Assembly (NCBI GenBank): GCA_947311435.1 | Contig: CAMZKT010000069.1 | Location: 1 to 32,167 of the forward strand | Source of the DNA: an uncultured Desulfocapsa sp. | Lineage (GTDB): Bacteria > Desulfobacterota > Desulfobulbia > Desulfobulbales > Desulfocapsaceae | DNA: 32,167 bases | Direction: 5' to 3' | Shown: piece by piece, positions 96-22,472 of the stretch | Numbering within the stretch: the first letter of the stretch is position 1 | How the letters are laid out: each line of letters starts with the position of its first letter | Made by a program: the position numbers and the translations under genes | The notes under the pieces: generated by a model | The model's database searches: none | What the model saw: the letters and a program-made list of their open reading frames with translations, nothing else | Told to the model about the DNA's origin: nothing

Positions 96-1667
96 ATGGG
101 TCTTAGTATAAACACAAACGTAATGTCTCTCAATGCTCAACGAAACTTGGGCAAATCCCAGAATGACCTGTCGAAATCAATGCAGCGTCTTTCATCCGGT
201 CTTCGCATCAACTCAGCAAAAGATGATGCTGCCGGTCTTGCAATCTCAGATCGTATGACCTCGCAAATCCGCGGTCTGAATCAGGCGGTAAGAAACTCCA
301 ACGATGGTATATCCCTTGCGCAAACCGCAGAAGGTGCGCTTCAGGAAACCACTAACATTCTTCAACGTATGCGTGAGCTGTCTGTCCAGTCGGCAAACGA
401 TACAAACAGTGCTTCGGACAGATCTTCCCTGCAGGCTGAGGTGAACCAGCTCAAGCAGGAAATGACACGTATTTCTGATACCACATCCTTTAATGGAAAG
501 AACCTGCTCGACGGAAGTATGACATCGGCCCAGTTCCAGGTTGGTGCCAATGCCAACCAGACGATTTCTTTTGGTATTGAGTCTGCTAAAGCTGCTGACC
601 TCGGAAGTAACATCCTGACCTCAACAAATGATGATGCAACAGGAATTCAAGCTGCTACTCCTGCAGCAACCGACACCAGTGGTGGAAATAACGTAACTGC
701 ACAAACACTGACAATTGTAGGCCCGGAAGGATCCGGAACTGTTGATGTTGCTCTTAATGCCAGTGCAAATGCTATCGTCGGCAAAGTAAATGAAGCCACT
801 GCCACCACTGGAGTGGAAGCAACGGCTCTGACAACAGCCACTTTGTCTGATCTTTCAGCAGACGGTACAGTTTCTTTCGATCTGCAGGGAACCAACAGTA
901 CAGCAGTTGGTATCAGTGCTACTGTCACCACAGACAACCTCTCATCCCTGGCACAGGCCATAAATGATCAGGCTGGAACAACGGGTATCACTGCCAAGTT
1001 GAGCGGCGACAACAAAAGTATAGAGCTGACTCAGGCATCGGGTCATGATATAAAAGTTGCCGATTTCGTACACAGTGCGGCAGGAGAGGCTGGCACAACT
1101 GCGACCATGAATGTTACTGGTAGCCAAACAAATGATTCTACCGGTGTTGCACTTAATCCTGTAACCTTAACAGATACTGCTACAGCAGCGGGTACACCTG
1201 ATAATAACTCTGCCAATAACGACTCAACAGTAGTTGGAGGTGAGATCTCTTTTTCCTCTTCCGGTTCTTTCAATGTAAGTACTGATGCAATTGCTACGGC
1301 TGGTTCTCTCTTTAACAATACAGTTGCCGGGGGAGCAAATGTCAGTACTTTAAGTTCCATAGACAATGTGGATATCACAACCGTCGAAGGTTCGGCAAAT
1401 GCCATCCAGTCCATAGATGGGGCCTTAATGCAGGTAGACAACATGCGCGGTGAGCTCGGTGCGGTTCAAAACCGTTTTGAATCAACCATCGCCAACCTGT
1501 CCAATGTTTCAGAAAACCTTTCTGCGGCGCGTAGTCGAATCCTCGATGCGGATATCGCCCAGGAAACTTCTGCAATGACCAAGAATAATATCCTGCAGCA
1601 GGCTGGTGTTTCCATCCTTGCCCAGGCAAACCAGGCTCCTCAGCTGGCCTTGTCACTGCTTGGCTAA
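96..1667 (+). CDS. fliC: flagellin
   Basis: This is the flagellar filament subunit, exported by the flagellar type III system and polymerised outside the cell. The N-terminus ([18 protein letters not shown], then [19 protein letters not shown] at about residues 33-51) and the C-terminus ([19 protein letters not shown], ending [12 protein letters not shown]) are the conserved D0/D1 helices. At 523 residues it is longer than a minimal flagellin of about 280. The extra length is a Thr/Ser/Ala-rich surface insert at about residues 180-420, which appears to hold flagellin-IN type repeats (around [19 protein letters not shown]). It contains no cysteine. The start is fixed by a strong AAGGAGG seven bases upstream. 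It leads the late flagellar block; flaG, fliD and fliS follow on the same strand. Confidence 0.97.
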
Positions 1668-1685
1668 TTTTCTTTCATCCTTTTC

Positions 1686-1717
1686 CCTCACGGGGGTGGC
1701 TTGCCATCCCTGTGAGG
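1686..1717 (+). terminator. stem-loop after flagellin, possible terminator or mRNA 3' end
   Basis: CCTCAC at 1686-1691 pairs with GTGAGG at 1712-1717, and the inner GG/TGG and CCA/CC bases extend the stem around a small loop. It sits 18 bases after the flagellin stop, as expected for a highly expressed transcript end. No T-run follows, so it may stabilise or process the mRNA rather than act as an intrinsic terminator. Confidence 0.5.
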
Positions 1718-1781
1718 CCATTGCATGTTTACCACAGCAGAAAACCAACCAATGTTAAACCTTCCATGGAAGGAGGAAACA

Positions 1782-2132
1782 ATGAATATTGAAGCATTAG
1801 CCAGCACTGGCAACACCAGTCAGATGCGATCCCCAACAGCAGAACAGGTTGACACCCAGCGAAAAGACAAGGAAAAGGCATCCGACACGCCCCAGGCATC
1901 GTCTTCTGAAAAAAAAGTTCAACCTGAAGAGCTCCTCAGTCAGATTAAGTCCGTCACCGAAGATGGTTTGTATAGTGTTCGTTTCGAAAGAGACGACAAC
2001 ACGGAACTTATCGTTAAAATATTTGACAACGAGACAGAAGAAGTGATCCGTCAAATACCCGCTGAAGAAATGTTACAATTACGGGAAACACTTGATGAAT
2101 TACGTGGAAATATCGTCGACGTTCAGGGTTAA
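1782..2132 (+). CDS. flaG: FlaG family flagellar protein
   Basis: FlaG proteins are small proteins encoded beside flagellin and the filament cap and affect filament length; their biochemical role is poorly defined. The C-terminal half (GLYSVRFERDDNTELIVKIFDNETEEVIRQIPAEEMLQLRETL) has the family signature: a beta-rich segment with IVKIFD and then VIRQIPAEE. The N-terminus is polar, charged and low in complexity (QRKDKEKASDT). I chose the ATG at 1782 (116 aa) because GGAAGGAGG lies just upstream. An in-frame ATG at 1725 would add 19 residues without a good ribosome site and would lie close to the flagellin stem-loop. Confidence 0.9.
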   Translation: MNIEALASTGNTSQMRSPTAEQVDTQRKDKEKASDTPQASSSEKKVQPEELLSQIKSVTEDGLYSVRFERDDNTELIVKIFDNETEEVIRQIPAEEMLQLRETLDELRGNIVDVQG

Positions 2133-2223
2133 ATTCCTCCTGCACAGACACTGTCAATCAACACGACGTTGTTTTATTTTCTTTCAACAGCTTGGATACG
2201 TTCAGAAAAAGTAGAGGTACATT

Positions 2224-3684
2224 ATGTCCGATGTAACATTTAGCGGCCTTGCCACAGGAATGGACACCGATTCCATTGTCAGCCAGTTGATGGATATCGA
2301 ACGGCTTCCAATCGACCGACTTGAAGCCAAGAAAACATCGGAAAAGAAAAAACTCGATGCCTACGCACAATTTAAATCCATTATTGATGATTTAAAAGAT
2401 GCCGCAGGAGCCATGACTCTCACCAGCCAGGTACGAACCAGTAAAATAAATCTCAGCTCGGAGGCTGCCTACACGGCGACATCGAGCAATGCGATCAGTG
2501 GCAGTTATGATATTTCCGTGGCACAACTCTCGCAGGTGCAAAAAAATGTCAGCGAAGGTTGGGCCTCCAATACCGACTCACTTCTTGGCACTGGTACATT
2601 CACCATTAATGGGACGGATATAACTATCACGGAATCCAACAATTCACTTGCCGGTCTGACAGAAGCCATAAACCAGATATCAGAGACAACCGGAGTAACT
2701 GCCACAATCATCAACAATGGCAGTGATACCGACCCGTATCACCTTGTTTTTACAGGAACCGACTCTTCCAAGTCCTTTACAATCAGCAGTAACCTTGAAG
2801 ATGCGACCGCCAATCCAATCGCCTTTAACACCACCCAGGCACAAACTGCTCAACAGGCTGTTGCATTTATTGATGGGATTAAGGTTGTCAGCGACACCAA
2901 TACCATTAGCGGTGCCATAAATGGGATCACGCTTAACCTGAACGAGCTGAGCCAAACAAGCTATGCCGGCACCGCAGAAACAGGTGTGGATCCCTGGGAC
3001 TGGGCCGACCCGCCGGTTTACAAAACAGACCAGATGCGCGTTGAACCCGACACCGACGCTCTCAAGGAAAAGGTCACCACATTTGTCAGCAGCTACAACA
3101 AGGCCATGGAGTGGATTCTTTCGGGCTATGCAGAATTTGGCGGCGCAACGTCCACCACTAAAGAAGACGGGACTGAAGAAGAGCTCCTGGGTACTGTTCT
3201 TCGCGGTGATTCATCCATTAACAGCATAAAAAGAGGCCTGCAGTCTCTGCTTAGCAACCCCATTGATACCAGTGGCCCTTTAAAAGTTCTCTCCCAGCTT
3301 GGTATCACCACCCAGGCGGATGGTACCCTTCATCAGGACAACAGTAAACTTGATGCTGCGTTACAGGACAACTACGAGGCAACTGTCCACCTGCTCTCCG
3401 GTGAAGGAGAAGTGGATGGAGTAATGAAGAACTTCAACTACTACCTCCTTGACATAACCAGTGGGACAGATGGTTTCTATGCTGCAAAAAAGAAAAGCTA
3501 CGACAGTACAGTAAATCGCATAGACGACCATATAGTTAGGATGGAACCACGGATGGCACTCAAAGAGAAAACATTACGTGCACAGTTCCTTGCCATGGAG
3601 CAGTTGGTCAGTGGCTTTAACGCACAGGGCAGTTTCCTCACCCAACAAATGGATATGCTCTCCAACATGATTTCAGGAAAATGA
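2224..3684 (+). CDS. fliD: flagellar filament capping protein FliD (HAP2)
   Basis: FliD forms the cap at the filament tip and guides flagellin assembly. At 486 aa it has the usual length. The N-terminal FliD_N region (FSGLATGMDTDSIVSQLMDIERLPIDRLEAKK) is typical. A flagellin-IN-like segment lies at about residues 120-180 (AINQISETTGVTATI). The C-terminal FliD_C coiled-coil region (VTTFVSSYNKAMEWI to LVSGFNAQGSFLTQQMDMLSNM) is intact. It follows flaG by 91 bases and shares an ATGA overlap with fliS, so the two are translationally coupled, and FliS-family chaperones serve the same export stage. The start has a modest AGAGG ribosome site. Confidence 0.96.
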   Translation: MSDVTFSGLATGMDTDSIVSQLMDIERLPIDRLEAKKTSEKKKLDAYAQFKSIIDDLKDAAGAMTLTSQVRTSKINLSSEAAYTATSSNAISGSYDISVAQLSQVQKNVSEGWASNTDSLLGTGTFTINGTDITITESNNSLAGLTEAINQISETTGVTATIINNGSDTDPYHLVFTGTDSSKSFTISSNLEDATANPIAFNTTQAQTAQQAVAFIDGIKVVSDTNTISGAINGITLNLNELSQTSYAGTAETGVDPWDWADPPVYKTDQMRVEPDTDALKEKVTTFVSSYNKAMEWILSGYAEFGGATSTTKEDGTEEELLGTVLRGDSSINSIKRGLQSLLSNPIDTSGPLKVLSQLGITTQADGTLHQDNSKLDAALQDNYEATVHLLSGEGEVDGVMKNFNYYLLDITSGTDGFYAAKKKSYDSTVNRIDDHIVRMEPRMALKEKTLRAQFLAMEQLVSGFNAQGSFLTQQMDMLSNMISGK

Positions 3685-4130
3685 TAATGAATCCCTACGC
3701 CCAACAAAAACAGTACAGTCAGAATTCCATAGAGATGGCATCGCAGGAGCAGATTCTCATCATGCTCTACGATGGCGCAATTCGTTTTATCCGGCAGGCC
3801 ATCACTGCCAGTGAGGCCCATGACATCACTGAAAAACTTGGGAGAATAAGTAAAGTTTTTGCTATTATCGTGGAGTTTTCCAACACACTCAACCATGATG
3901 TCGGCGGCCAAATAGCTGCCGACCTGGACGGTTTATATCAATTTATGCTGAGAGAACTGGGTAAAGCCAGAAAAGAAAAAGGGGAAGAAAGTCTTCGTGT
4001 TGTTGAAGGATTGCTGGTGGATCTACGAAAAACCTGGGGGGAAGCCATTGTCATCAGCAAAAAGGAAAGTGCCGGAAAGAAAAGCAGCATCCCGGATAGA
4101 ACATTCAAAACTCTTGCGGTGGCAGGGTAA
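3681..4130 (+). CDS. fliS: flagellar export chaperone FliS
   Basis: FliS binds the C-terminus of unpolymerised flagellin in the cytoplasm and hands it to the export gate. The N-terminus (MNPYAQQKQYSQNSIEMASQEQILIMLYDGAIRFIRQA) is the family hallmark, and the all-helical layout and 149-aa length fit. The start overlaps the fliD stop in an ATGA motif at 3681. A second in-frame ATG at 3687 would give a two-residue shorter protein beginning MNPYAQ, and either is possible. The last 20 or so residues (SKKESAGKKSSIPDRTF) are basic and look disordered. Confidence 0.95.
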   Translation: MIMNPYAQQKQYSQNSIEMASQEQILIMLYDGAIRFIRQAITASEAHDITEKLGRISKVFAIIVEFSNTLNHDVGGQIAADLDGLYQFMLRELGKARKEKGEESLRVVEGLLVDLRKTWGEAIVISKKESAGKKSSIPDRTFKTLAVAG

Positions 4131-4137
4131 TAACACC

Positions 4138-4557
4138 ATGACAAAGAATAAAAAAACAGTTCAAGATCTACTGCAGACGTCAATTTCCCAGTACACTGAG
4201 ATTTCACAGTTAATGGAAAACCTCGCACAGCCCGAAAACAGTCCGAGTATGGCGGAACTTTCCATGCTTGGAGAAAATATTCTTGAAAAACAGAACATTG
4301 CCATGGAAACTGACAAAGATCTGATGAGCCTCCTGCCCGATACTCTGTCAGATCCGGCAGTAGCCAGCAAAAACAAAATACGAACGGGATTGTTAAAGAA
4401 GATCATACAAATTAACCAGGGTATCACCTCGAATTTTTCCAATATCCACTCTCTGATGGACAGTGAACTTCGGCATTTAAGGAAAGGCCGGTCGGCCATG
4501 CTGGGGTATCAACAGTTGGCAGGCAAACCTGGTAAAAACCTTAACAATACCTTATGA
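4138..4557 (+). CDS. small helical protein, FliT/FlgN-like flagellar chaperone candidate
   Basis: The 139-residue protein is almost wholly alpha-helical by inspection, with no signal peptide and no membrane segment. It has a heptad-like helix in its middle (LLKKIIQINQGITSNFSNIHSLM) and a basic C-terminal stretch (ELRHLRKGRSAMLGYQQL) that recalls the end of FlgN/FliT-type chaperones. The family cannot be proved by eye. Position is the stronger argument: it starts seven bases after fliS and overlaps the next small gene by ATGA. A longer in-frame reading from 3997 runs inside fliS and has no ribosome site, so I took the ATG at 4138. FliT or FlgN normally sits in this place. Confidence 0.6.
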   Translation: MTKNKKTVQDLLQTSISQYTEISQLMENLAQPENSPSMAELSMLGENILEKQNIAMETDKDLMSLLPDTLSDPAVASKNKIRTGLLKKIIQINQGITSNFSNIHSLMDSELRHLRKGRSAMLGYQQLAGKPGKNLNNTL

Positions 4558-4907
4558 AAAATATAGAGGATCTCTTCCGGGAAAGTAGCAACCAATACCT
4601 GTATTTGGAGAACGAGGCCACCAGCCTTGGCAAAAAGATGATATGCCTTTCTCCGGATGAGATACTCAGTCGCTGTGAATGTCTGGGGAAGCTGCACAGA
4701 GAGCAAATAAAAGTTGATTCTTTTATTATGGGAATCATAACCGATTGTGGCCCTGAAATACTTCGCGAACCTTTTATCTACGAATACAAAGAGGCTCTTG
4801 ACAGTGCGCTTGAGGCCTTGGATGTGATCTCCCTGCAAGCTGGCAAACTTTTACAAACTCTCAACTCTTCCAAACCTTCTTTACCGACAAAGCATATTCG
4901 CGCCTGA
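4554..4907 (+). CDS. small helical protein of the fliDS operon, unknown
   Basis: I do not recognise this 117-residue protein. It is acidic, cytoplasmic and helical (SSNQYLYLENEATSLGKKM, then PFIYEYKEALDSALEALDVISLQAGKLLQTL). It starts inside the stop codon of the preceding gene (ATGA overlap), so it is made from the same message as FliS and the FlgN/FliT-like protein. Its size and fold type would suit a second export chaperone or a flagellar assembly factor; this is inference from context only. The reading frame is firm because of the coupling and because it spans its segment without an alternative frame. Confidence 0.6.
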   Translation: MKNIEDLFRESSNQYLYLENEATSLGKKMICLSPDEILSRCECLGKLHREQIKVDSFIMGIITDCGPEILREPFIYEYKEALDSALEALDVISLQAGKLLQTLNSSKPSLPTKHIRA

Positions 4908-4950
4908 CCTTCTATCAGCAGTCAGTATTCTTCCACCATGCCGGCTTAAC

Positions 4951-4977
4951 TAAAGTTTTTTTCTATTCTCTCGACAC
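4951..4977 (+). promoter_or_regulatory. candidate sigma-28 (FliA) promoter of the PilZ/FliK-like block
   Basis: TAAAGTTT at 4951-4958 is identical to the enteric sigma-28 -35 consensus. Eleven bases later CTCGACAC (4970-4977) lies where GCCGATAA is expected and keeps the central CGA, but only four of eight bases match. The spacing is exact. The pair sits 85 bases before the first PilZ gene, in the 154-base gap between the two flagellar blocks. Confidence 0.45.
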
Positions 4978-5061
4978 AAATTATTAAAAATGATAAATTT
5001 TACCTTATTGATTGTCCGTGTTGAATAAAAACTCCTCTTCTTTTTCAAATAAGGATATCCA

Positions 5062-5751
5062 GTGACTGAAAATAATGAACTTCTCAAAAACATTTCCGAC
5101 GACAAACCGGTTCGACTCTTTCTCCCCGTAACGGATTCTGACGACAGGCTCCTGATTCCATGCATTTTAAAAAAAATGCAGAACGGTCACTTCCAGTTAC
5201 TGTTTGTTCCCGGCTCTCTTCCCGTGGAAAAGGTAGACATGAACACCTCCTGCCTCATCAACATTGATCTTGGCGGAAAAAGTGTCTCACTAGAAAGTAA
5301 AATAATCGATATCAGCAATAGCCAAACTCTGGAGATGGTTCCACAGAAGAGCATTAGCCACGAACAGATGCGGGAATATTTCAGAGTTGACTGTACAATT
5401 CCCATAATGTTATCTTCAATAGTTCCTGAAGCATTTGCCACAAAAGAAGACAACTGGAAGATCCCGGGAACCACCGTGGATCTCAGCGGCGCCGGACTTC
5501 GTGCAAGTTTCTCACAGGAGCCGCCGGCCGACACCCAGGTAAGGATTGAGTTGGCATTGCCAAGTACAGAAACCAACATTGTTCAAACTCTGGCCTCCCC
5601 CGTTCGGATAACACAGCTCACAGAAAAACTCTGGGATGCAGCCTATCAATTTGATGTGATAGAAGATGAAGATCAGGACGCCATCATAGGGTGTTGTCTT
5701 ATTGAACAGAGACGTTTACTTCGTTTAAAGGTAAAAGTAAAAAAATACTGA
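5062..5751 (+). CDS. PilZ domain protein, YcgR-like c-di-GMP receptor (first of a tandem pair)
   Basis: The protein (229 aa) has a YcgR-like N-terminal beta-rich domain (about residues 10-100) and a C-terminal PilZ domain. The c-di-GMP binding signatures are both present: RxxxR as R104-EYF-R108, and DLSGAG at 140-145. PilZ proteins of this build sense cyclic di-GMP and slow or redirect the flagellar motor, and the flagellar neighbours agree. It begins with GTG, preceded by AAGGAT at 5051-5056; no in-frame ATG lies near. The next gene is a paralogue with the same architecture 54 bases downstream. The target on the motor is not evident from the sequence. Confidence 0.85.
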   Translation: MTENNELLKNISDDKPVRLFLPVTDSDDRLLIPCILKKMQNGHFQLLFVPGSLPVEKVDMNTSCLINIDLGGKSVSLESKIIDISNSQTLEMVPQKSISHEQMREYFRVDCTIPIMLSSIVPEAFATKEDNWKIPGTTVDLSGAGLRASFSQEPPADTQVRIELALPSTETNIVQTLASPVRITQLTEKLWDAAYQFDVIEDEDQDAIIGCCLIEQRRLLRLKVKVKKY

Positions 5752-5805
5752 TTGCTCAAGACATCCGGGCAGCGACAGACACAAGTAACTTGAAAGGAAA
5801 GTGCA

Positions 5806-6486
5806 TTGACTGCTTCTATAGCTGAAACAATAAAAATGTTATCCGACAGCGATTCGGCAAAGATTGATATTCCAACCATTGACGGCCCAAGGGTTCGTTT
5901 AAACTGCATTTACAAAGAATCTGAATCACCTGCCTTCTTCCTGGTTTTCCCGCCTAAACGACTTCCAGATGATATTGACATGAATAAATCATGTCCTGTC
6001 TCCATTAATAATGGAGATAAAGCACTAACTCTCAGTGCAGAGATCGTTGAGATAAAGGGCGACAGGACAATGGAATTGGTGGCGAGAAAAAAGCTTTCCC
6101 CCGAAAGTCTGCGCGAGTTCTTCCGTGTCGATACCAGGGTTCCTGTTCATGCCCGCTTCCACCCGCCATCGCTTAATGACCAGAGACGTCGATGGTCGCT
6201 TGACGGATGGACATTAAATCTTTCTGGAAGTGGAGCCTTAACCGTTCTTCCTGAAGAACCCAAAACCAGGAACAAAATAGAACTCTTTATACACGTCGAC
6301 GCCAAAAGCCCCATAGAATGTCTTGCCCATATCGTAACAATAAAACATATTCGCAGAGCCGTTTACCAGGTGTCTTTTCATTTCGACGACATATCGCAAA
6401 AAGACAAAGATTCCATTATTTCGTTTTGTCTTAAAGAACAGAGAAATCAACTGCGGAATCAGATACAAACCGTGGACGACCAGTGA
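5806..6486 (+). CDS. PilZ domain protein, YcgR-like c-di-GMP receptor (second of a tandem pair)
   Basis: This 226-aa paralogue of the preceding protein shares the pattern DIDMNKSC, then LREFFRVDTRVPV, then TLNLSGSGAL. The c-di-GMP contacts are intact: R103 and R107 (RxxxR) and N138-LSGSG-143. I read the start as TTG at 5806, with AAAGGA at 5793-5798 upstream; the first in-frame ATG (5836) would remove ten residues. Sequence divergence from the first copy is large outside the motifs, so the duplication is old and the two may act on different partners or respond to different c-di-GMP levels (inference). Confidence 0.83.
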   Translation: MTASIAETIKMLSDSDSAKIDIPTIDGPRVRLNCIYKESESPAFFLVFPPKRLPDDIDMNKSCPVSINNGDKALTLSAEIVEIKGDRTMELVARKKLSPESLREFFRVDTRVPVHARFHPPSLNDQRRRWSLDGWTLNLSGSGALTVLPEEPKTRNKIELFIHVDAKSPIECLAHIVTIKHIRRAVYQVSFHFDDISQKDKDSIISFCLKEQRNQLRNQIQTVDDQ

Positions 6487-6605
6487 CTGACCTACTCCGT
6501 ATAACCAGTACTCCTGAAACACACATATACCATGCGACACTGAAGCTATAACATACGTATAGAAACCAACAGTTAAGATCGTTTTCCTTTTCCAGGAAGA
6601 GTAGT

Positions 6606-7649
6606 ATGGATACAATCAACCCGCTCTCACCCATTAAGTCTGTTGGAACTGCAACTTCTGATACAAGCGGAAGACAGCAATTTCAACAACAGGGAACACC
6701 CGGAAAAATTATAACAGCAACGGTTCTTGAATCTGCCGGCAATAACAAGGTTTACCTCAATATATCCGGTAAGAAAATTCTTGCTGGCGGTGACAAGGTA
6801 TCCCTGCAGCCAGGAACCAGGCTTAACCTGGAAATTCTTGCCACACAACCCGTACTTGAGCTGAAGATTGTTTCTAAAACCCCAGAAGTATTGTTTGGGA
6901 AGACATTGACGCTCCTGGGAAACAATCTTGATATCAGCTCACTTTTTCAAGTATTAAAGGGTGATGTATCTCCCCTCCCAACCCCTCTTAGCACTACCGC
7001 CCGTAATACAATTCAAAACTTTTACCACCTTCAACACAGCGTCACCGGCAAGGAAGGTGCTGGAGCACAATTACAGCAGGTCATCAACAGGCTTGGTCTT
7101 ACTCTTGAATCTACATTAGCAAAAGGGAATTCTGATACTGCCGGGAAAACCTTGAAGGCTGCACTCCTGGAAATCTCTTCAATTCTACGAGAAGGTGGTT
7201 CTATTGCAGGTACTGCCAACAAGTTGCTGGGTACACTTGAACTGTTCCAACTGGCACAGCTTCGTCTATCCACAGAAAACCTTCTGCTGTTTCCACTTCC
7301 ACTCCCGTTCTTGAATAACGGATACCTGCTAGTTGAACAGGATCAAGAGACAACTCAGACAAAACAAAGAACTGATATGCTTCGTTTTTCCCTTCATCTG
7401 AGTTTAGATGCTTTGGGAGATATCAAAATCTCCTTCCTTCAGACAAGTGAGGGGCTGTATATACAATTTTCCTGTGATTCCCCTGAAAAGAAAAAGTTTG
7501 CCATGGACTCACAGGAAGAGTTAAAAGAGATCATCAGCAATAAAAAAATCCTCGGCCTGAGTTTCACTGATACTGCTGAGAACCCTGTGGATGACCTTAT
7601 CCGTCGCCTTGTTCCCAGTGGGGAATCCATGCTTAATATGAGAGTATAA
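6606..7649 (+). CDS. flagellar hook-length control FliK-like protein
   Basis: The N-terminal half of this 347-aa protein carries a small beta domain (ITATVLESAGNNKVYLNISGKKI to LKIVSKTPEVLFG, about residues 36-95). A helical middle follows. The C-terminal part (MLRFSLHLSLDALGDIKISFLQ, about 258-325) matches the layout of the FliK C-terminal domain that contacts FlhB: a leucine-rich strand, an LG turn, and a further hydrophobic strand. The next gene encodes an FlhB C-terminal homologue nine bases downstream, which fits a substrate-switch pair. It is shorter and more ordered than classical FliK and lacks a long Pro/Gln-rich ruler, so it may be a divergent paralogue rather than the main hook ruler. 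The start ATG has GAAGAG upstream. Confidence 0.65.
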   Translation: MDTINPLSPIKSVGTATSDTSGRQQFQQQGTPGKIITATVLESAGNNKVYLNISGKKILAGGDKVSLQPGTRLNLEILATQPVLELKIVSKTPEVLFGKTLTLLGNNLDISSLFQVLKGDVSPLPTPLSTTARNTIQNFYHLQHSVTGKEGAGAQLQQVINRLGLTLESTLAKGNSDTAGKTLKAALLEISSILREGGSIAGTANKLLGTLELFQLAQLRLSTENLLLFPLPLPFLNNGYLLVEQDQETTQTKQRTDMLRFSLHLSLDALGDIKISFLQTSEGLYIQFSCDSPEKKKFAMDSQEELKEIISNKKILGLSFTDTAENPVDDLIRRLVPSGESMLNMRV

Positions 7650-7657
7650 AATAATCC

Positions 7658-7942
7658 ATGGCTAAGAAAGGGCTGGAAAAAGCAGTTGCTATCCTCTATG
7701 ATTCACAAGAGTCATCGTCTCCTAAAGTCATAGCATCAGGCAAGGGAGAAGTTGCAAAAAAAATAATTGAGACCGCAAGAGAAGCCGGTGTTCATATTCA
7801 GGAAGATGTCAATCTTGTAGAATTACTTTCCAAAATTGATCTTGGTGAAGAAATCCCTGCCGAATTATATCAGACCGTGGCCGAAGTATTAGCCTTCGTC
7901 TATAAAGTCAATGATAAGTTTAAGAACAAAATTCAATCCTGA
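7658..7942 (+). CDS. FlhB C-terminal domain homologue (FhlB/YlqH type)
   Basis: The 94 residues align with the cytoplasmic domain of the type III export switch FlhB/YscU: KAVAILYDSQESSSPKVIASGKGEVAKKIIETAREAGVHIQEDVNLVELLSKIDLGEEIPAELYQTVAEVLAFVY. The membrane part of FlhB is absent, and so is the NPTH autocleavage motif, which lies just before this segment in FlhB; the protein corresponds roughly to the released FlhB-CC fragment. Stand-alone copies of this domain occur in many flagellated bacteria. It follows the FliK-like gene by nine bases, so both are likely co-translated and may act together in export specificity. Confidence 0.88.
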   Translation: MAKKGLEKAVAILYDSQESSSPKVIASGKGEVAKKIIETAREAGVHIQEDVNLVELLSKIDLGEEIPAELYQTVAEVLAFVYKVNDKFKNKIQS

Positions 7943-7969
7943 ACTCCATAAAACGATTGGCTATCAACT

Positions 7970-8002
7970 GATGGCGTTGTAAAAACTCTTCATTTGCTTC
8001 GT
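7970..8002 (-). repeat. truncated copy of repeat family C (CTCGTAAAAA element)
   Basis: The segment TGATGGCGTTGTAAAAACTC and the following CTTCATTTGCTTCGT are the reverse complement of the right end of the complete copy at 27268-27411, with a few substitutions. The rest of the element is missing, so this is a remnant in opposite orientation, 27 bases after the FlhB-like gene. Confidence 0.7.
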
Positions 8003-15467: not shown

Positions 15468-17348
15468 TTAAAAATCAATCCTAAAACTATACACGCCCTC
15501 TTCAACAGAACTTTGCACTTTATAACCGGAATGATTAAATATTGCTTGCATCCTCCTGTTATCACGCAGGACCTCTGCAGTAAACCCTGATATCCCACTT
15601 GCTTTAGCTAATGTGATCAGGTGCTTAAACATAAACGTCCCCAAACCCATATTCTGCCATTCATCACGAATCACGAAGGCTACCTCTGCACGATTTGTAC
15701 GTTCATCAAGGTAGTACCTGCCCACGGCCACGATATCATCGCCATGCGCCTCGGGAAGAGTCCCTACTATGGCAACATCTTTACGATGATCGACATAGAC
15801 AAAGTTCTGTATTTCTCGTTGCCCGAAATGTTGGTTATGACTCATAAATCTGTAATACAAGGTCTCCTTTGAGAGATCGTACAAGAGATCCCGCATTAGC
15901 GGTTCATCCGTTGGATGAATAGGCCTGAAATAAATTTCGGTACCAGATTTCAGCAAGTAGGTTGCGTTCATCATATTCTGAGGAGCAACCACAAATTTCC
16001 CCTCAACTTCTACAAAATCTTTCCGGATATACTTTGCTTCGATAGCATCTTTTAAGAGTTGTTCACGATGATCTGGATGTGCTATTGAGATAAGAGCAAG
16101 AGTACGATCCTGTACTGATTTTCCATGAAGATACGCAACACCATATTCCGTCACAACATAATGAACCGTGGCACGGCTGACTACAACTCCTGCACCTGGT
16201 GTTAAATGTACATTGATTCGTGAGTGGCCATCTCGAGTTGTTGAAGGAATGGTTATTATTGCCCTTCCACCTTCTGAACGAGCCGCACCTCTATTAAAAT
16301 CCACCTGCCCTCCTACCCCTGAATAAAAGCTACCATCCTCAGAATCTGAACAGACCTGTCCGGTAAGATCAATTTCCATTGCCATATTAATGGACACCAT
16401 GCGTTTCTGATTTCCTATCACATTTGAATCATTCACGTATTCTGTTGGACGGAAGGAAAAAAGTGGGTTATCGTCAACAAAATCATACAATTTTTTGGTA
16501 CCCATACAAAAACTTGTAACAACCTTGCCCCTATTGGTCGATTTTCTGTTGCCACTCACAGCCCCACTTTCAATCAGCTGCAGGATATCATCAGTGATGA
16601 GCTCTGTGTGAATACCAAGGTCATGTTTTCCCTTCAATGCAAGTATTACCGCCTGGGGGATTCGTCCAACACCTGGAATTCTACCAAGTCCAAATTCAAC
16701 GGTGGATTCATTGGGCACAAGACCTGCAACATACTCTGCTATTTTGATACTAATTTGGTGCGGTAGTTTGGATTCTCGTTCAAGAAGAGGTACGTCTGCC
16801 GGAACCAGGATATCAAGATCATACACGTCAATCAAACTGTCTCCTCGTGTCCACGGCATCTGAGGATTCACCTGGGCGATCACGAGAGAGGCGTTCCTGG
16901 CTGCACTCTTTACAATATCAACGGAGACACCGAGACTCATTTTTCCACGTGAATCAGGTGGGGTGACCTGGATCAAGGCCACATCTAGGGGAAGTTGTCC
17001 CGAATCAAAAAGACGAGGGATATCAGACATCAAAACAGGTGTGTAATCTCCACGACCGTCCCTGATCACTTCACGCACATTATGCCCGATAAAGAATGAA
17101 TTTATTTTGAAGCAACTAGCGAATTTCTTATCAGCATAGGGGGCATTCCCCTTGGTTAAAAGCTCTATAATTTCTATGTCAGCCAGGTTTCCAGCTATTT
17201 TGCTCATCGCTTCGACGAGGACCGTCGGCTCACCACATCCAGAACCCAGAAACACACGATATCCTGATTTCAAAAGCGACAGCGCCCTCTTTGGAGTCTT
17301 AAGCATATCCTTGTATGTTTCTTTCCAGTGAAGATCGTAATCCACCAT
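15468..17348 (-). CDS. acetyl-CoA hydrolase/CoA-transferase fused to a GNAT acetyltransferase domain
   Basis: Residues about 1-450 are an acetyl-CoA hydrolase/4-hydroxybutyrate CoA-transferase-type enzyme (VFLGSGCGEPTVLVEAM; VEFGLGRIPGVGRIPQAV; GVGGQVDFNRGAARSEGGRAIIT; ATVHYVVTEYGVAYLHGKS). Residues about 469-626 are a GNAT domain (EIYFRPIHPTDEPLMRDLL; acetyl-CoA loop RDEWQNMGLGTFMF). The first part should move CoA between acyl groups or hydrolyse acetyl-CoA; the second could acetylate a lysine, perhaps on the ligase encoded just upstream. It starts nine bases after the acetate-CoA ligase gene with GGTAGGAGAG as ribosome site, so the two are co-translated. No break lies between the domains, so the fusion is genuine. 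The substrate specificity cannot be read from the sequence. Confidence 0.9.
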   Translation of the reverse strand: MVDYDLHWKETYKDMLKTPKRALSLLKSGYRVFLGSGCGEPTVLVEAMSKIAGNLADIEIIELLTKGNAPYADKKFASCFKINSFFIGHNVREVIRDGRGDYTPVLMSDIPRLFDSGQLPLDVALIQVTPPDSRGKMSLGVSVDIVKSAARNASLVIAQVNPQMPWTRGDSLIDVYDLDILVPADVPLLERESKLPHQISIKIAEYVAGLVPNESTVEFGLGRIPGVGRIPQAVILALKGKHDLGIHTELITDDILQLIESGAVSGNRKSTNRGKVVTSFCMGTKKLYDFVDDNPLFSFRPTEYVNDSNVIGNQKRMVSINMAMEIDLTGQVCSDSEDGSFYSGVGGQVDFNRGAARSEGGRAIITIPSTTRDGHSRINVHLTPGAGVVVSRATVHYVVTEYGVAYLHGKSVQDRTLALISIAHPDHREQLLKDAIEAKYIRKDFVEVEGKFVVAPQNMMNATYLLKSGTEIYFRPIHPTDEPLMRDLLYDLSKETLYYRFMSHNQHFGQREIQNFVYVDHRKDVAIVGTLPEAHGDDIVAVGRYYLDERTNRAEVAFVIRDEWQNMGLGTFMFKHLITLAKASGISGFTAEVLRDNRRMQAIFNHSGYKVQSSVEEGVYSFRIDF

Positions 17349-20224: not shown

Positions 20225-21187
20225 TTATTCACTCGTTAGTCCTCTTAAGTACGATTCGACCGAAAGTCCAAGCACAGAAAGTTCATAACCACCCTCCAGA
20301 ATGGACAACAAATGCCCTTCTGTATACTTATCAGCCCATATTTTCATCTTCCTTCCTATTTTGTAGTACAAATCTGTTGAGAAGCACAGTCCAGACATGT
20401 GGTCTTCACAATGGGCATCAAAACCTGCTGCTATAATAATAGCATCAGGCTGCCAGTCTGCAAGTTTTTTGGGAATCACATTGTCCAGGAGGTCCATCAC
20501 TTTTATATCTCCATCACCTGGCTGCAACGGAAGATTGAGAATACTGCCTTTCCCTTTCCCTAGTCCATTTTCATCCCTATAGCCAGTACCTGGATAACTA
20601 AAACTTGGATGCTCATGAATCGAAATATAGTAACTTCCCGACTCTTCTTCAAATGCAGATTGAATTCCATTACCATGATGTGCATCAAAGTCGAATATAA
20701 GTACTCGTTTTTTATTATAATGTTTTTGCCAATACCTGGCAGCAATGACACAATTATTAAAAAAGCAAAACCCAAAAGGGTTCGAATGCTCTGCATGATG
20801 TCCTGGTGGTCGTACTAAACAAAATATATTTTTTCCACCGCCATTCTCAATAAGATTAATGGCTGTTATACCCGCCCCCGCAGCAAGACAGGCCACATTG
20901 TAAGAATCATAACAAACCTGATTGTCAATATGATCAATATATGTATTTCCCCTAAGAACAGCTTCCTCAAAACGAAACAGCCAGTTTTCTCCATGAACTC
21001 TTTTGATATCTTCTCTCGCTGCACTATTTGGAGAGACTAAAGCCACCGAAGAATACCATGAACTCAGCTCAAGGGTTTCTTTAATCACCTGCAGCCTGGC
21101 CGGATTTTCTGGATGACCAACACCACCAGTATCGTGGCTGAGGTAACTCATATCTTCTATTAATGTAAGAGGAGGGAACGATTCCAT
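20225..21187 (-). CDS. histone deacetylase family protein, AcuC/acetylpolyamine-amidohydrolase-like
   Basis: The arginase-fold deacetylase signature is complete: the catalytic pair H130-H131 in RPPGHHAEHSNPFGFCFFNN, zinc ligands D168 and H170 in FDFDAHHGNG, a third ligand Asp in AAGFDAHCEDH, and the glycine-rich LEGGYEL near the end. At 320 aa it has single-domain size. In bacteria such enzymes remove acetyl groups from proteins (AcuC acts on acetyl-CoA synthetase) or from polyamines. Its place as the first gene of a set with AcuB-like, acetate-CoA ligase and GNAT-fusion genes favours a protein substrate, probably the ligase (inference). The gene starts 185 bases from the divergent selenoprotein gene. 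Confidence 0.9.
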   Translation of the reverse strand: MESFPPLTLIEDMSYLSHDTGGVGHPENPARLQVIKETLELSSWYSSVALVSPNSAAREDIKRVHGENWLFRFEEAVLRGNTYIDHIDNQVCYDSYNVACLAAGAGITAINLIENGGGKNIFCLVRPPGHHAEHSNPFGFCFFNNCVIAARYWQKHYNKKRVLIFDFDAHHGNGIQSAFEEESGSYYISIHEHPSFSYPGTGYRDENGLGKGKGSILNLPLQPGDGDIKVMDLLDNVIPKKLADWQPDAIIIAAGFDAHCEDHMSGLCFSTDLYYKIGRKMKIWADKYTEGHLLSILEGGYELSVLGLSVESYLRGLTSE

Positions 21188-21267: not shown

Positions 21268-21372
21268 CAGTTCCCCAAGACGACAACAAGTTTATAGAAA
21301 ATCAACAAGCTCTACACTATACTTTCAACTGCAATAATGCAACTGTAGCATCAACAAGGGAACACATAAACT

Positions 21373-21624
21373 ATGACTATTACCTTTTATCACTCAAGCC
21401 TCTGACCCCGTTGCCACATGGCACAAAAAGCTCTGGACGAGCTGATCCTTGATATGAATGACGTACGGGTAGAAAAAATTGAAGTAATCACTCATCCTGT
21501 AAGGGCTCTACAGGATGGAGTCAAAATCATCCCCACCCTCAAATCAGGCAATGAAAGTATCAGCGGATTCCTGCTTAGTCGAAAAAAGATCAAGGCCTTC
21601 CTTGAAAAGGTAACACAACAGTGA
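21373..21624 (+). CDS. selenocysteine-containing thioredoxin/glutaredoxin-like protein (in-frame TGA at 21403-21405)
   Basis: Starting at ATG 21373, with AAGGGA at 21356-21361 as ribosome site, the frame reads MTITFYHSSL, then TGA, then PRCHMAQKALDELILD, and stays open to 21624 (83 codons plus stop). Reading TGA as selenocysteine (Sec11) gives U-P-R-C, the active site of a thioredoxin fold, placed as expected between the first strand and first helix. The rest fits the fold, including a cis-Pro-like IIPTL before the last strands. The ATG after the TGA (21418) has no ribosome site and would remove the active site and first strand. A hairpin with GG in its loop lies 28 bases after the TGA. It probably serves as a small thiol/selenol redox protein. 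The next gene starts inside its stop (GTGA). Confidence 0.82.
21403..21451 (+). promoter_or_regulatory. candidate bacterial SECIS element
   Basis: After the UGA at 21403-21405, AGCTC (21429-21433) pairs with GAGCT (21439-21443) around the five-base loop TGGAC. An outer CAA/TTG pairing (about 21424-21426 with 21449-21451) could extend it. The loop starts 28 bases after the UGA, within the 16-37 base window known for bacterial SECIS elements, and has G at its second and third positions, as SelB recognition requires. The stem is short, so folding should be computed. Confidence 0.6.
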
Positions 21625-22472
21625 AACATCTTATTCTGAGCTCTGTCACACGACTGGATGTTGTTGTGTGGATAATGGTCTTATTATTTTTTTGTGGAAG
21701 TAGCCTTCTTTTCGGGGGAAATCTTCAACTTGCATTCATGGGGGCATCCGGCATCATCATGGAAATGATGCTAATCAGCTTATCTATTGAAATAATAATT
21801 GAATCAATCAGGCATATCAAGGGGATAGGAACAGTAACCGGTTTTATCACCAACGGACCAGAGGCTTTGTGCCTAATTGTAGGGCTTGTTACGGGCGATG
21901 TTTTATTCGCGGCATCCACACCACTTGGTTCCAATTTTATGAATCCTATACTACTTGTAACATCCGCAATTCTATGTAAAAGCGTATTGCTAACATTTAA
22001 AACAAAACCGATTTACAGCAGTATAACCATACTCAGTACAGCAAGTCTTGCTGTAAGTTTTTACCTGATCCCAGAATCATTTTATCCGTATTGGCTGGTC
22101 ATTGCTCTTCTCATTACAGTACCCCTCTTTTGCCTGCGTCCAGATGAGGGTGAGGAAGAAAGCGATGCGATGCACGATGGTGATGCCAGAATATGGCTTA
22201 TACCAGCAGTTCTCCTTTTGATCGGCGCTGGTTATTTTCTTGATCCGGTAGTCTCTTTTTCCGCGGAGCACTCCAAAGCACCGAAAGGAATTATTGGTTT
22301 TTTTATTTTGGCAACTCTTACTTCTTGGCCAGAGTTTAAATCATGCCTAGCTTTATTGAGCCGGAGAAAACCATTGGCTGCCATACTAAACATCACAATT
22401 TCCAACATTACCAATATCTGGTTAGCTGCCGGTGGGGTTGGATTCTACCTATTTGGTAAAATAGGTTTTTAA
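21621..22472 (+). CDS. CaCA-type (sodium/calcium exchanger-like) membrane protein
   Basis: The protein (283 aa) is very hydrophobic, with roughly nine to ten membrane helices. Two related alpha-repeat-like segments appear in opposite halves: TNGPEALCLIVGLVTGDVLFAASTPLGSNFMNPILL (about 77-112) and TSWPEFKSCLALLSRR followed by NITISNITNIWLA (about 234-270). In each an acidic PE motif is followed by a G/SNxxN motif, as in cation exchangers of the CaCA superfamily. A charged loop (RPDEGEEESDAMHDGDA) divides the halves. It starts with GTG overlapping the stop of the selenoprotein gene, so its translation is coupled to that gene. The transported ion is unknown. Confidence 0.75.
   Translation: MKHLILSSVTRLDVVVWIMVLLFFCGSSLLFGGNLQLAFMGASGIIMEMMLISLSIEIIIESIRHIKGIGTVTGFITNGPEALCLIVGLVTGDVLFAASTPLGSNFMNPILLVTSAILCKSVLLTFKTKPIYSSITILSTASLAVSFYLIPESFYPYWLVIALLITVPLFCLRPDEGEEESDAMHDGDARIWLIPAVLLLIGAGYFLDPVVSFSAEHSKAPKGIIGFFILATLTSWPEFKSCLALLSRRKPLAAILNITISNITNIWLAAGGVGFYLFGKIGF

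Follow-up and report, generated by a model that had tools for sequence, protein, structure and literature searches.

A probable thioredoxin-fold selenoprotein with a UPRC motif in an uncultured Desulfocapsa, and its selenocysteine and cysteine relatives

Small thioredoxin-like selenoproteins with selenocysteine (Sec, U) in a UxxC motif are an already known kind of protein. The 2026 review PMC13188914 lists a Sec-containing thioredoxin (Trx, PF00085, UxxC) and describes the thioredoxin-like selenoproteins Sec.1 and Sec.2 (PF13192), with the Sec motifs CxU and UxC. The bSECIS model given there has a stem of 4–16 bp, an apical loop of 3–9 nt, a G in the first two loop positions and a distance of 16–37 nt from the UGA. 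In the same review, substitution of Cys for Sec is called rare, with documented cases found primarily in FdhA and SelD. Other small selenoproteins of the thioredoxin or glutaredoxin fold, several of them with UxxC, are Uxx-star, SaoT, GOS_C and HUIPC. For Desulfolithobacter dissulfuricans GF1, PMC12013277 gives a deep-Sep count of 22 known selenoprotein genes and 0 new ones. Our literature search, which took in article text as far as it was available and not supplements, found no description of a UPRC selenoprotein family and no Sec version of the thioredoxin family TIGR00411; the UPRC family may already be listed under ‘thioredoxin’ in supplements.

Here, we analyzed a stretch of 32,167 nucleotides from an uncultured Desulfocapsa sp. 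(contig CAMZKT010000069.1 of assembly GCA_947311435.1), referred to below as the window. On its forward strand, positions 21373–21624 read as ten codons opening with ATG, an in-frame TGA as codon 11 (21403–21405), P-R-C as codons 12–14 directly after it, 69 more residues, and a terminal TGA (21622–21624). This is the arrangement from which a first-pass annotation of the bare sequence had proposed a hidden selenoprotein, and its ATG, its TGA and the PRC in the same frame are all where that annotation had placed them. Homologs, codon evolution and the predicted fold suggest a thioredoxin-like selenoprotein of 83 residues in which the TGA is read as Sec at residue 11, the first position of U-P-R-C. 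We put the probability that the locus is a genuine selenoprotein gene, encoding a single-domain thioredoxin-fold oxidoreductase with Sec inserted at codon 11, at roughly 0.93.

The gene and its protein family

A mechanical ORF list bore out the prediction that standard annotation would start at 21418 and end at 21624, giving a protein of 68 residues from which the active site is missing. Such a start removes 15 residues from the N-terminus and with them the entire active site; the other 62 TGA genes found here risk the same loss, so that the selenoprotein nature of the enzyme easily goes unnoticed. A possible ribosome-binding site, AAGGGA (21356–21361, forward strand), lies 11 bases 5' of the ATG. 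It is a candidate for the ribosome site claimed earlier, but its spacing is rather long and it is weaker than had been stated.

A six-frame whole-genome search with stops read through (E 1e-6) detected a homolog in 63 of 96 relatives. The codon aligned with codon 11 is TGA in 24 of these first homologs and encodes Cys in 39; the motif is UPRC in 23 members of the TGA set and UPRS in one, and CPRC in all 39 members of the Cys set. We then considered a base-level sample of 109 genes, made up of the first 63, the TGA cases among the matches listed in an order-wide search, and some Cys cases; 49 of the 158 family-bearing genomes lie outside it. Here, the codon is TGA in 63 genes and TGC or TGT in 46, and no other codon occurs. 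Homologs with Cys aligned to the TGA, whose absence would have spoken against the earlier reading, thus make up 39 of 63 genes in the first set and 46 of 109 in the extended one. In 63 genomes this codon is TGA, and a single misread base in the window, another doubt that the first-pass annotation had raised, is therefore not the cause. The [U/C]PRC motif is found in 108 of the 109 genes, including CPRC in 46/46 Cys versions, the exception being UPRS. In this variant, Sec is kept and the resolving Cys is replaced by Ser (L003:1501-1749 and L046:4001-4246, from a member of the window's genus; both contigs are 207,497 long, so that the two records probably represent one genome).

Among 257 genomes of the order, a profile of the 63 sequences detected the family in 158, spread over 45 of 69 genera; in a phylum-wide sample of 395 genomes, it did so in only 7, all seven from the same order. 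Within the genomes sampled, the family is confined to this one order, which we take to be Desulfobulbales. The genome G530 carries the TGA version. In the window's genus, the gene is present in 18 of 20 genomes, in all 18 with TGA, and the two that lack a match have a completeness of 76% and 72%. Among viral contigs, 25 stretches fit the pattern, none of them a relative.

The 18 gene-bearing genomes of the genus also allowed synonymous and nonsynonymous differences to be compared on the two sides of the TGA. The pS/pN values are 0.683/0.127 for codons 2–10 and 0.548/0.143 for codons 12–27, and the two other frames display the opposite pattern or little difference. Judging from these substitution patterns, the sequence evolves as protein-coding both before and after the TGA.

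In Pfam, the window protein scores 24.0 bits with Thioredoxin (PF00085; positions 24–83 of 103), barely over the gathering cut-off of 23.5, and falls below the cut-offs of Thioredoxin_3 (PF13192; 24.0 versus 24.8) and Glutaredoxin (21.1 versus 22.9). In NCBIfam, the window protein falls well short of every model's cut-off; for the other 62 members, NCBIfam results were read as E-values and not as bit scores against cut-offs, and 55 of the 63 members match TIGR00411 at E 0.001. The best solved relative by family profile is the thioredoxin 1fo5 (E 1.1e-12), which we take to be MJ0307. A predicted model of the window protein with Cys in place of Sec (pLDDT 87) has the elements E2-7, H13-25, E32-37, H42-47, E55-58, E61-64 and H70-82, corresponding to a thioredoxin fold without an N-terminal extension. 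In this model, helix 1 begins shortly after residue 11 and has the active-site pair at its N-terminus. The top Foldseek matches are nearly all thioredoxins and the rest are thioredoxin-fold domains or fusions, with TMq values of 0.68–0.84 among the 50 matches listed. Columns 11–13, with Sec counted as Cys, are invariant in 63 rows, as is Pro54, which precedes strand 3. The thioredoxin-like fold and the active-site position proposed earlier are supported by the Pfam and 1fo5 profiles, the confident model and Foldseek.

The window protein resembles the Sec-containing thioredoxin of PMC13188914 in its thioredoxin fold, in Sec as the first residue of UxxC, in the existence of Cys homologs and in the bSECIS downstream. 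From classical thioredoxin it differs in its length of 83 residues, its lack of an N-terminal strand and helix, and its UPRC motif, and its score with the classical model TIGR01068 is 19.5 bits, against a cut-off of 96.8. It shares a compact fold with the MJ0307 family thioredoxins of TIGR00411, but scores 29.5 bits where the curated cut-off is 92.75, and the motif of 1fo5 is CPHC, whereas the Cys versions of the window's family have CPRC. The mycoredoxin and glutaredoxin-like families are similar in length and in their N-terminal CxxC-type motif, but the scores of the window protein stay far from the cut-offs of mycoredoxin TIGR02200 (32.2 versus 89.5 bits), NrdH TIGR02194 (23.1 versus 85.75) and GlrX_YruB TIGR02196 (23.4 versus 88.55). 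The same holds for Uxx-star (Uxx_star, NF041212; 16.7 versus 66 bits), which, like SaoT, GOS_C and HUIPC, is comparable as a small selenoprotein of the Trx/Grx fold; SaoT (NF040730), GOS_C (NF045500) and HUIPC (NF047660) are absent from the 15 NCBIfam families that the protein matches at E 0.1. PF13192, the family of Sec.1 and Sec.2, is among its two best Pfam matches, but its own motif is UxxC and not CxU or UxC, the motifs ascribed to those proteins in PMC13188914.

A hairpin after the TGA and the selenocysteine machinery

A bSECIS-like hairpin, AGCTC-TGGAC-GAGCT, is found at 21429–21443 on the forward strand. It consists of a 5 bp stem and the 5-nt apical loop TGGAC (29th base after the TGA), which has G in its position 2 and is separated from the TGA by 28 nt. 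These values fall within the stem, loop, G and distance constraints of PMC13188914, whose model has an energy condition besides. Taken alone, the hairpin is not unusual for its codons and is equalled by 10% of its codon shuffles. Across the family, with the limits relaxed a little (loops of at most 14 nt), a hairpin of the bSECIS type is present in 63/63 Sec genes versus 22/46 Cys genes.

Alignment of the Sec genes separates two placements of the stem. In 32 sequences from three genera of the window's family, it is fully paired at register 29 without exception (32/32), versus a maximum of 10 fully paired stems in any of 300 synonymous-codon shuffle sets; the register was derived from 21 sequences, and each of the 11 genes added later conforms to it. 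Among the first 21 sequences, changes on both sides occur at two of the five pairs, which is reached by 16 of 500 column shuffles, and the covariation score is reached by 0 of 500. In the other 31 Sec sequences, which come from other families, 92.3% of the cells are paired at register 22, versus 64.7% (sd 2.7) in shuffles, a register that was chosen on the very sequences on which it was scored; complete stems are found in 19/31, and 12/31 are without one or more of the five pairs. At the register of the other, each Sec set is near the shuffle level (0.544 versus a mean of 0.503, and 0.394 versus 0.396) and has no complete stem. The Cys genes are at the shuffle level at register 22 (0.487 versus 0.475) and slightly above it at register 29 (0.548 versus 0.489 on average and 0.539 at most), where they include two complete stems, both from genus g5. 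The fit to register 22 is poor for two Sec genes of family f15, whose hairpin may have a third placement; SECIS placements in the family number two, perhaps three.

Rfam yielded no match to the window at gathering and, at E 1, none within 21300–21700. A promoter scan of the window was uninformative, with four sites found versus 3.6 expected. Five terminator-like sites were found versus 1.3 expected; two lie inside the selenoprotein gene on the opposite strand, and one of these is the mirror of the SECIS stem.

The window's assembly (2.45 Mb in 134 contigs, 88.84% complete) contains selA (G000:C58:462-1823, 476 aa) and a Sec-type selD with one in-frame TGA (G000:C35:404-1342). Searches of this 88.84%-complete assembly for selB (E 1e-60) and tRNA-Sec (gathering score) found neither. 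In the genus, selD with TGA is present in 20/20 genomes, selA in 17/20, selB at E 1e-60 in 16/20 (15 above the family cut-off) and tRNA-Sec at gathering score in 16/20. In relatives, selB adjoins a gene that we take to be an MBL-fold hydrolase (5/5 loci inspected) and selC adjoins what is presumably glyQ (4/4), both named from their sequences. In the window's assembly, the best that the hydrolase query retrieved was a partial match of 34% identity, and the glyQ query retrieved nothing. Since their usual neighbors are absent as well, selB and selC of this genome most likely fall in assembly gaps; glyQ is normally essential, and its absence argues for gaps and against loss. The first-pass annotation had held that a genome without selB and selC would count against Sec. 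Taken literally, neither is found in this incomplete assembly. It does contain selA and a selD with TGA, however; most of the genus has selB and tRNA-Sec, and the neighboring genes are missing too.

Parts of the machinery also lack a match in some other genomes with the TGA gene. No SelB was found at E 1e-60 in G003 (98% complete), G583 (99%), G613 (92%) and G579 (55%), no tRNA-Sec match in G001 (98%) and G005 (78%), and no selA match in G009 (100%, two contigs) and G005. In G009, selA alone gave no match, whereas selB, tRNA-Sec, a selD containing TGA and the TGA gene itself are all present. In five genomes of the genus (G001, G007, G008, G012 and G018), selD is matched twice above the cut-off, and both matches contain an in-frame TGA.

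Two other readings of codon 11 have to be weighed against these results. If the TGA were a true stop, as in a pseudogene or through a sequencing or assembly error, either the 68-residue ORF from 21418 or nothing would be made. That ORF does exist, with an ATG, and the searches of this assembly retrieved neither selB nor selC; this reading is nevertheless very improbable, as TGA stands at the same codon in 63 genomes, the reading frame is conserved upstream of it, and both the active site and the first strand precede 21418. Because the Cys homologs begin upstream of the motif and the upstream codons are conserved, we rejected the 68-residue ORF as a real product. An open frame after a TGA does not by itself reveal which residue is inserted, and an ordinary amino acid could be placed there through a changed code or leaky read-through. 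However, the same gene ends with TGA, on which ground an alternative genetic code was rejected. The 46 homologs without TGA, moreover, all have TGC or TGT, selA and a TGA-containing selD occur here and selB and tRNA-Sec in the genus, and a hairpin matching the bSECIS constraints follows the TGA, all of which reduces the probability of an ordinary amino acid to almost nothing. Insertion of Sec, as in the hidden UxxC selenoprotein first proposed, is the reading supported by the Sec/Cys pairs at codon 11, the hairpin in every Sec gene examined and the protein-like evolution on both sides. In keeping with established bacterial biology, the hairpin, which lies 28 nt downstream of the TGA, would recruit SelB with Sec-tRNA, and Sec would be inserted instead of termination.

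Exchange between selenocysteine and cysteine

A tree of the 109 proteins requires 13 Sec/Cys changes, six of which are forced by supported branches. The alignment has 85 columns for 109 rows and many forks are unresolved, so that we claim only the forced changes; these put the number of Sec/Cys changes in the family at six or more. At least four genera (g5, g37, g39 and g295) hold both versions. In g5, two Cys genes (genomes G023 and G039; loci L019 and L020, compared with the Sec loci L138 and L139) keep a complete register-29 stem. Over 69 bases around the codon, the Cys gene of G023 and the Sec gene of G583 have one difference, in the third base of the recoded codon. Since g5 has 12 Sec genes, the simplest reading is a recent reversion from Sec to Cys in which the hairpin would have been retained as a fossil; it is possible that the Cys codons are assembly base errors.

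SelB was considered as a means of telling Sec-form from Cys-form genomes and rejected. Outside the genus, it is present in 42/45 Sec-form genomes (the misses being G583, G613 and G579) and in 32/35 Cys-form genomes, in a test that covered 80 of 91 genomes, the 11 omitted being all Cys-form and 9 of those less than 90% complete. SelB is as common in Cys-form as in Sec-form genomes, so that loss of the machinery does not account for the Cys versions.

The most unusual features of the family are the shift of the SECIS register and the live exchange between Sec and Cys. The family would constitute a natural experiment, in which one small protein in one order has undergone at least six forced changes and occurs in both versions in at least four genera, and in which the direction and the steps of exchange are testable. 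It also includes a Sec/Cys gene pair 1 base in 69 apart, with an intact hairpin.

Genomic neighborhood and possible function

Downstream of the selenoprotein gene, at 21621–22472 on the forward strand, lies a gene for an exchanger-like membrane protein of 283 residues with a diverged sodium/calcium exchanger domain (Pfam PF01699, E 4.2e-07, residues 197–274). Because only the C-terminal part has a Pfam match, its identity as an exchanger is tentative. An AlphaFold2 model based on three sequences reached a pLDDT of only 37, and a profile of 16 sequences retrieved no solved structure at E 1. This gene starts with a GTG that runs into the terminal TGA of the selenoprotein gene, the two together reading GTGA. 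In the genus, the overlap is four bases in 17/18 loci, two of these being deduced from a match beginning at residue 36, and a single base in one. Cysteines 25, 84, 119 and 242 of the exchanger-like protein are conserved in most of 33 homologs. C84 is found in 33/33 and C242 (241 or 243 where the numbering shifts) in 30/33, and both are close to the two repeat motifs of the protein, NGPE and SWPE.

Fold and motif point to a likely reaction scheme for the selenoprotein. The selenolate of Sec11, at the N-terminus of helix 1, would attack a disulfide or a similar oxidised sulfur of a partner, and the resulting mixed selenylsulfide would be resolved by Cys14. Pro54, a predicted cis-proline, would shape the partner site, and the oxidised protein would be re-reduced by a cellular reductase. 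The downstream exchanger-like protein, with its conserved cysteines, may be one partner in this clade; the family also occurs without it.

That the selenoprotein serves mainly to regulate the thiol state of the exchanger-like protein, with its conserved C25, C84, C119 and C242, is conceivable but doubtful. The exchanger-like gene directly follows in 33/63 loci, including 18/18 in the window's genus, and C84 and C242 are conserved to the extent given above; in the other 30 loci, however, there is no exchanger match in the stretch examined, some stretches being short, three g5 loci with Sec and Cys versions have none between the gene and leuA, and in other families the gene adjoins a class-I adenylate cyclase-like gene. 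As the gene also occurs without the exchanger and elsewhere next to the cyclase-like gene, a fixed partner is not supported. An unlikely alternative function is binding of a metal, or transfer of sulfur or selenium, by the UPRC pair with no disulfide or selenylsulfide cycling. CxxC pairs are also known from metal sites, according to PMC1088965, and one genome, with UPRS, has no resolving Cys; the thioredoxin fold, the motif at the N-terminus of helix 1, the invariant Pro54 and the consistent CPRC of the Cys versions speak against such a role. It is also quite improbable that the recoded UGA acts in addition as a selenium gate on the exchanger-like gene, such that low selenium would cause a stop at codon 11 and no re-start at the exchanger. 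The start of the exchanger-like gene inside the stop codon of the selenoprotein gene, with the four-base overlap prevailing in the genus, would suit such a gate, under which ion exchange would track selenium supply, but this start has its own AAGG about 10 bases upstream. A thioredoxin-fold oxidoreductase remains the reading that we prefer.

On the other side of the selenoprotein gene, a histone-deacetylase-like gene (Pfam PF00850, E 5.5e-86) occupies 20225–21187 on the reverse strand; such a gene stands beside the selenoprotein gene in 26/63 loci. Loci from other families of the order (L028, L092, L094, L096, L108 and L115) have a class-I adenylate cyclase-like ORF upstream on the same strand, an identity assigned by Pfam for L115 only and by eye for the other five. 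Elsewhere in the window, 15468–17348 holds an ORF of 626 residues, which we take to be an acetyl-CoA hydrolase/transferase with a C-terminal acetyltransferase domain, adjoining an ORF of 700 residues that is presumably acyl-CoA synthetase-like. Positions 96–8000 hold what appears to us to be a series of flagellin, FlaG, FliD and FliS-like ORFs, with PilZ-like ORFs after them.
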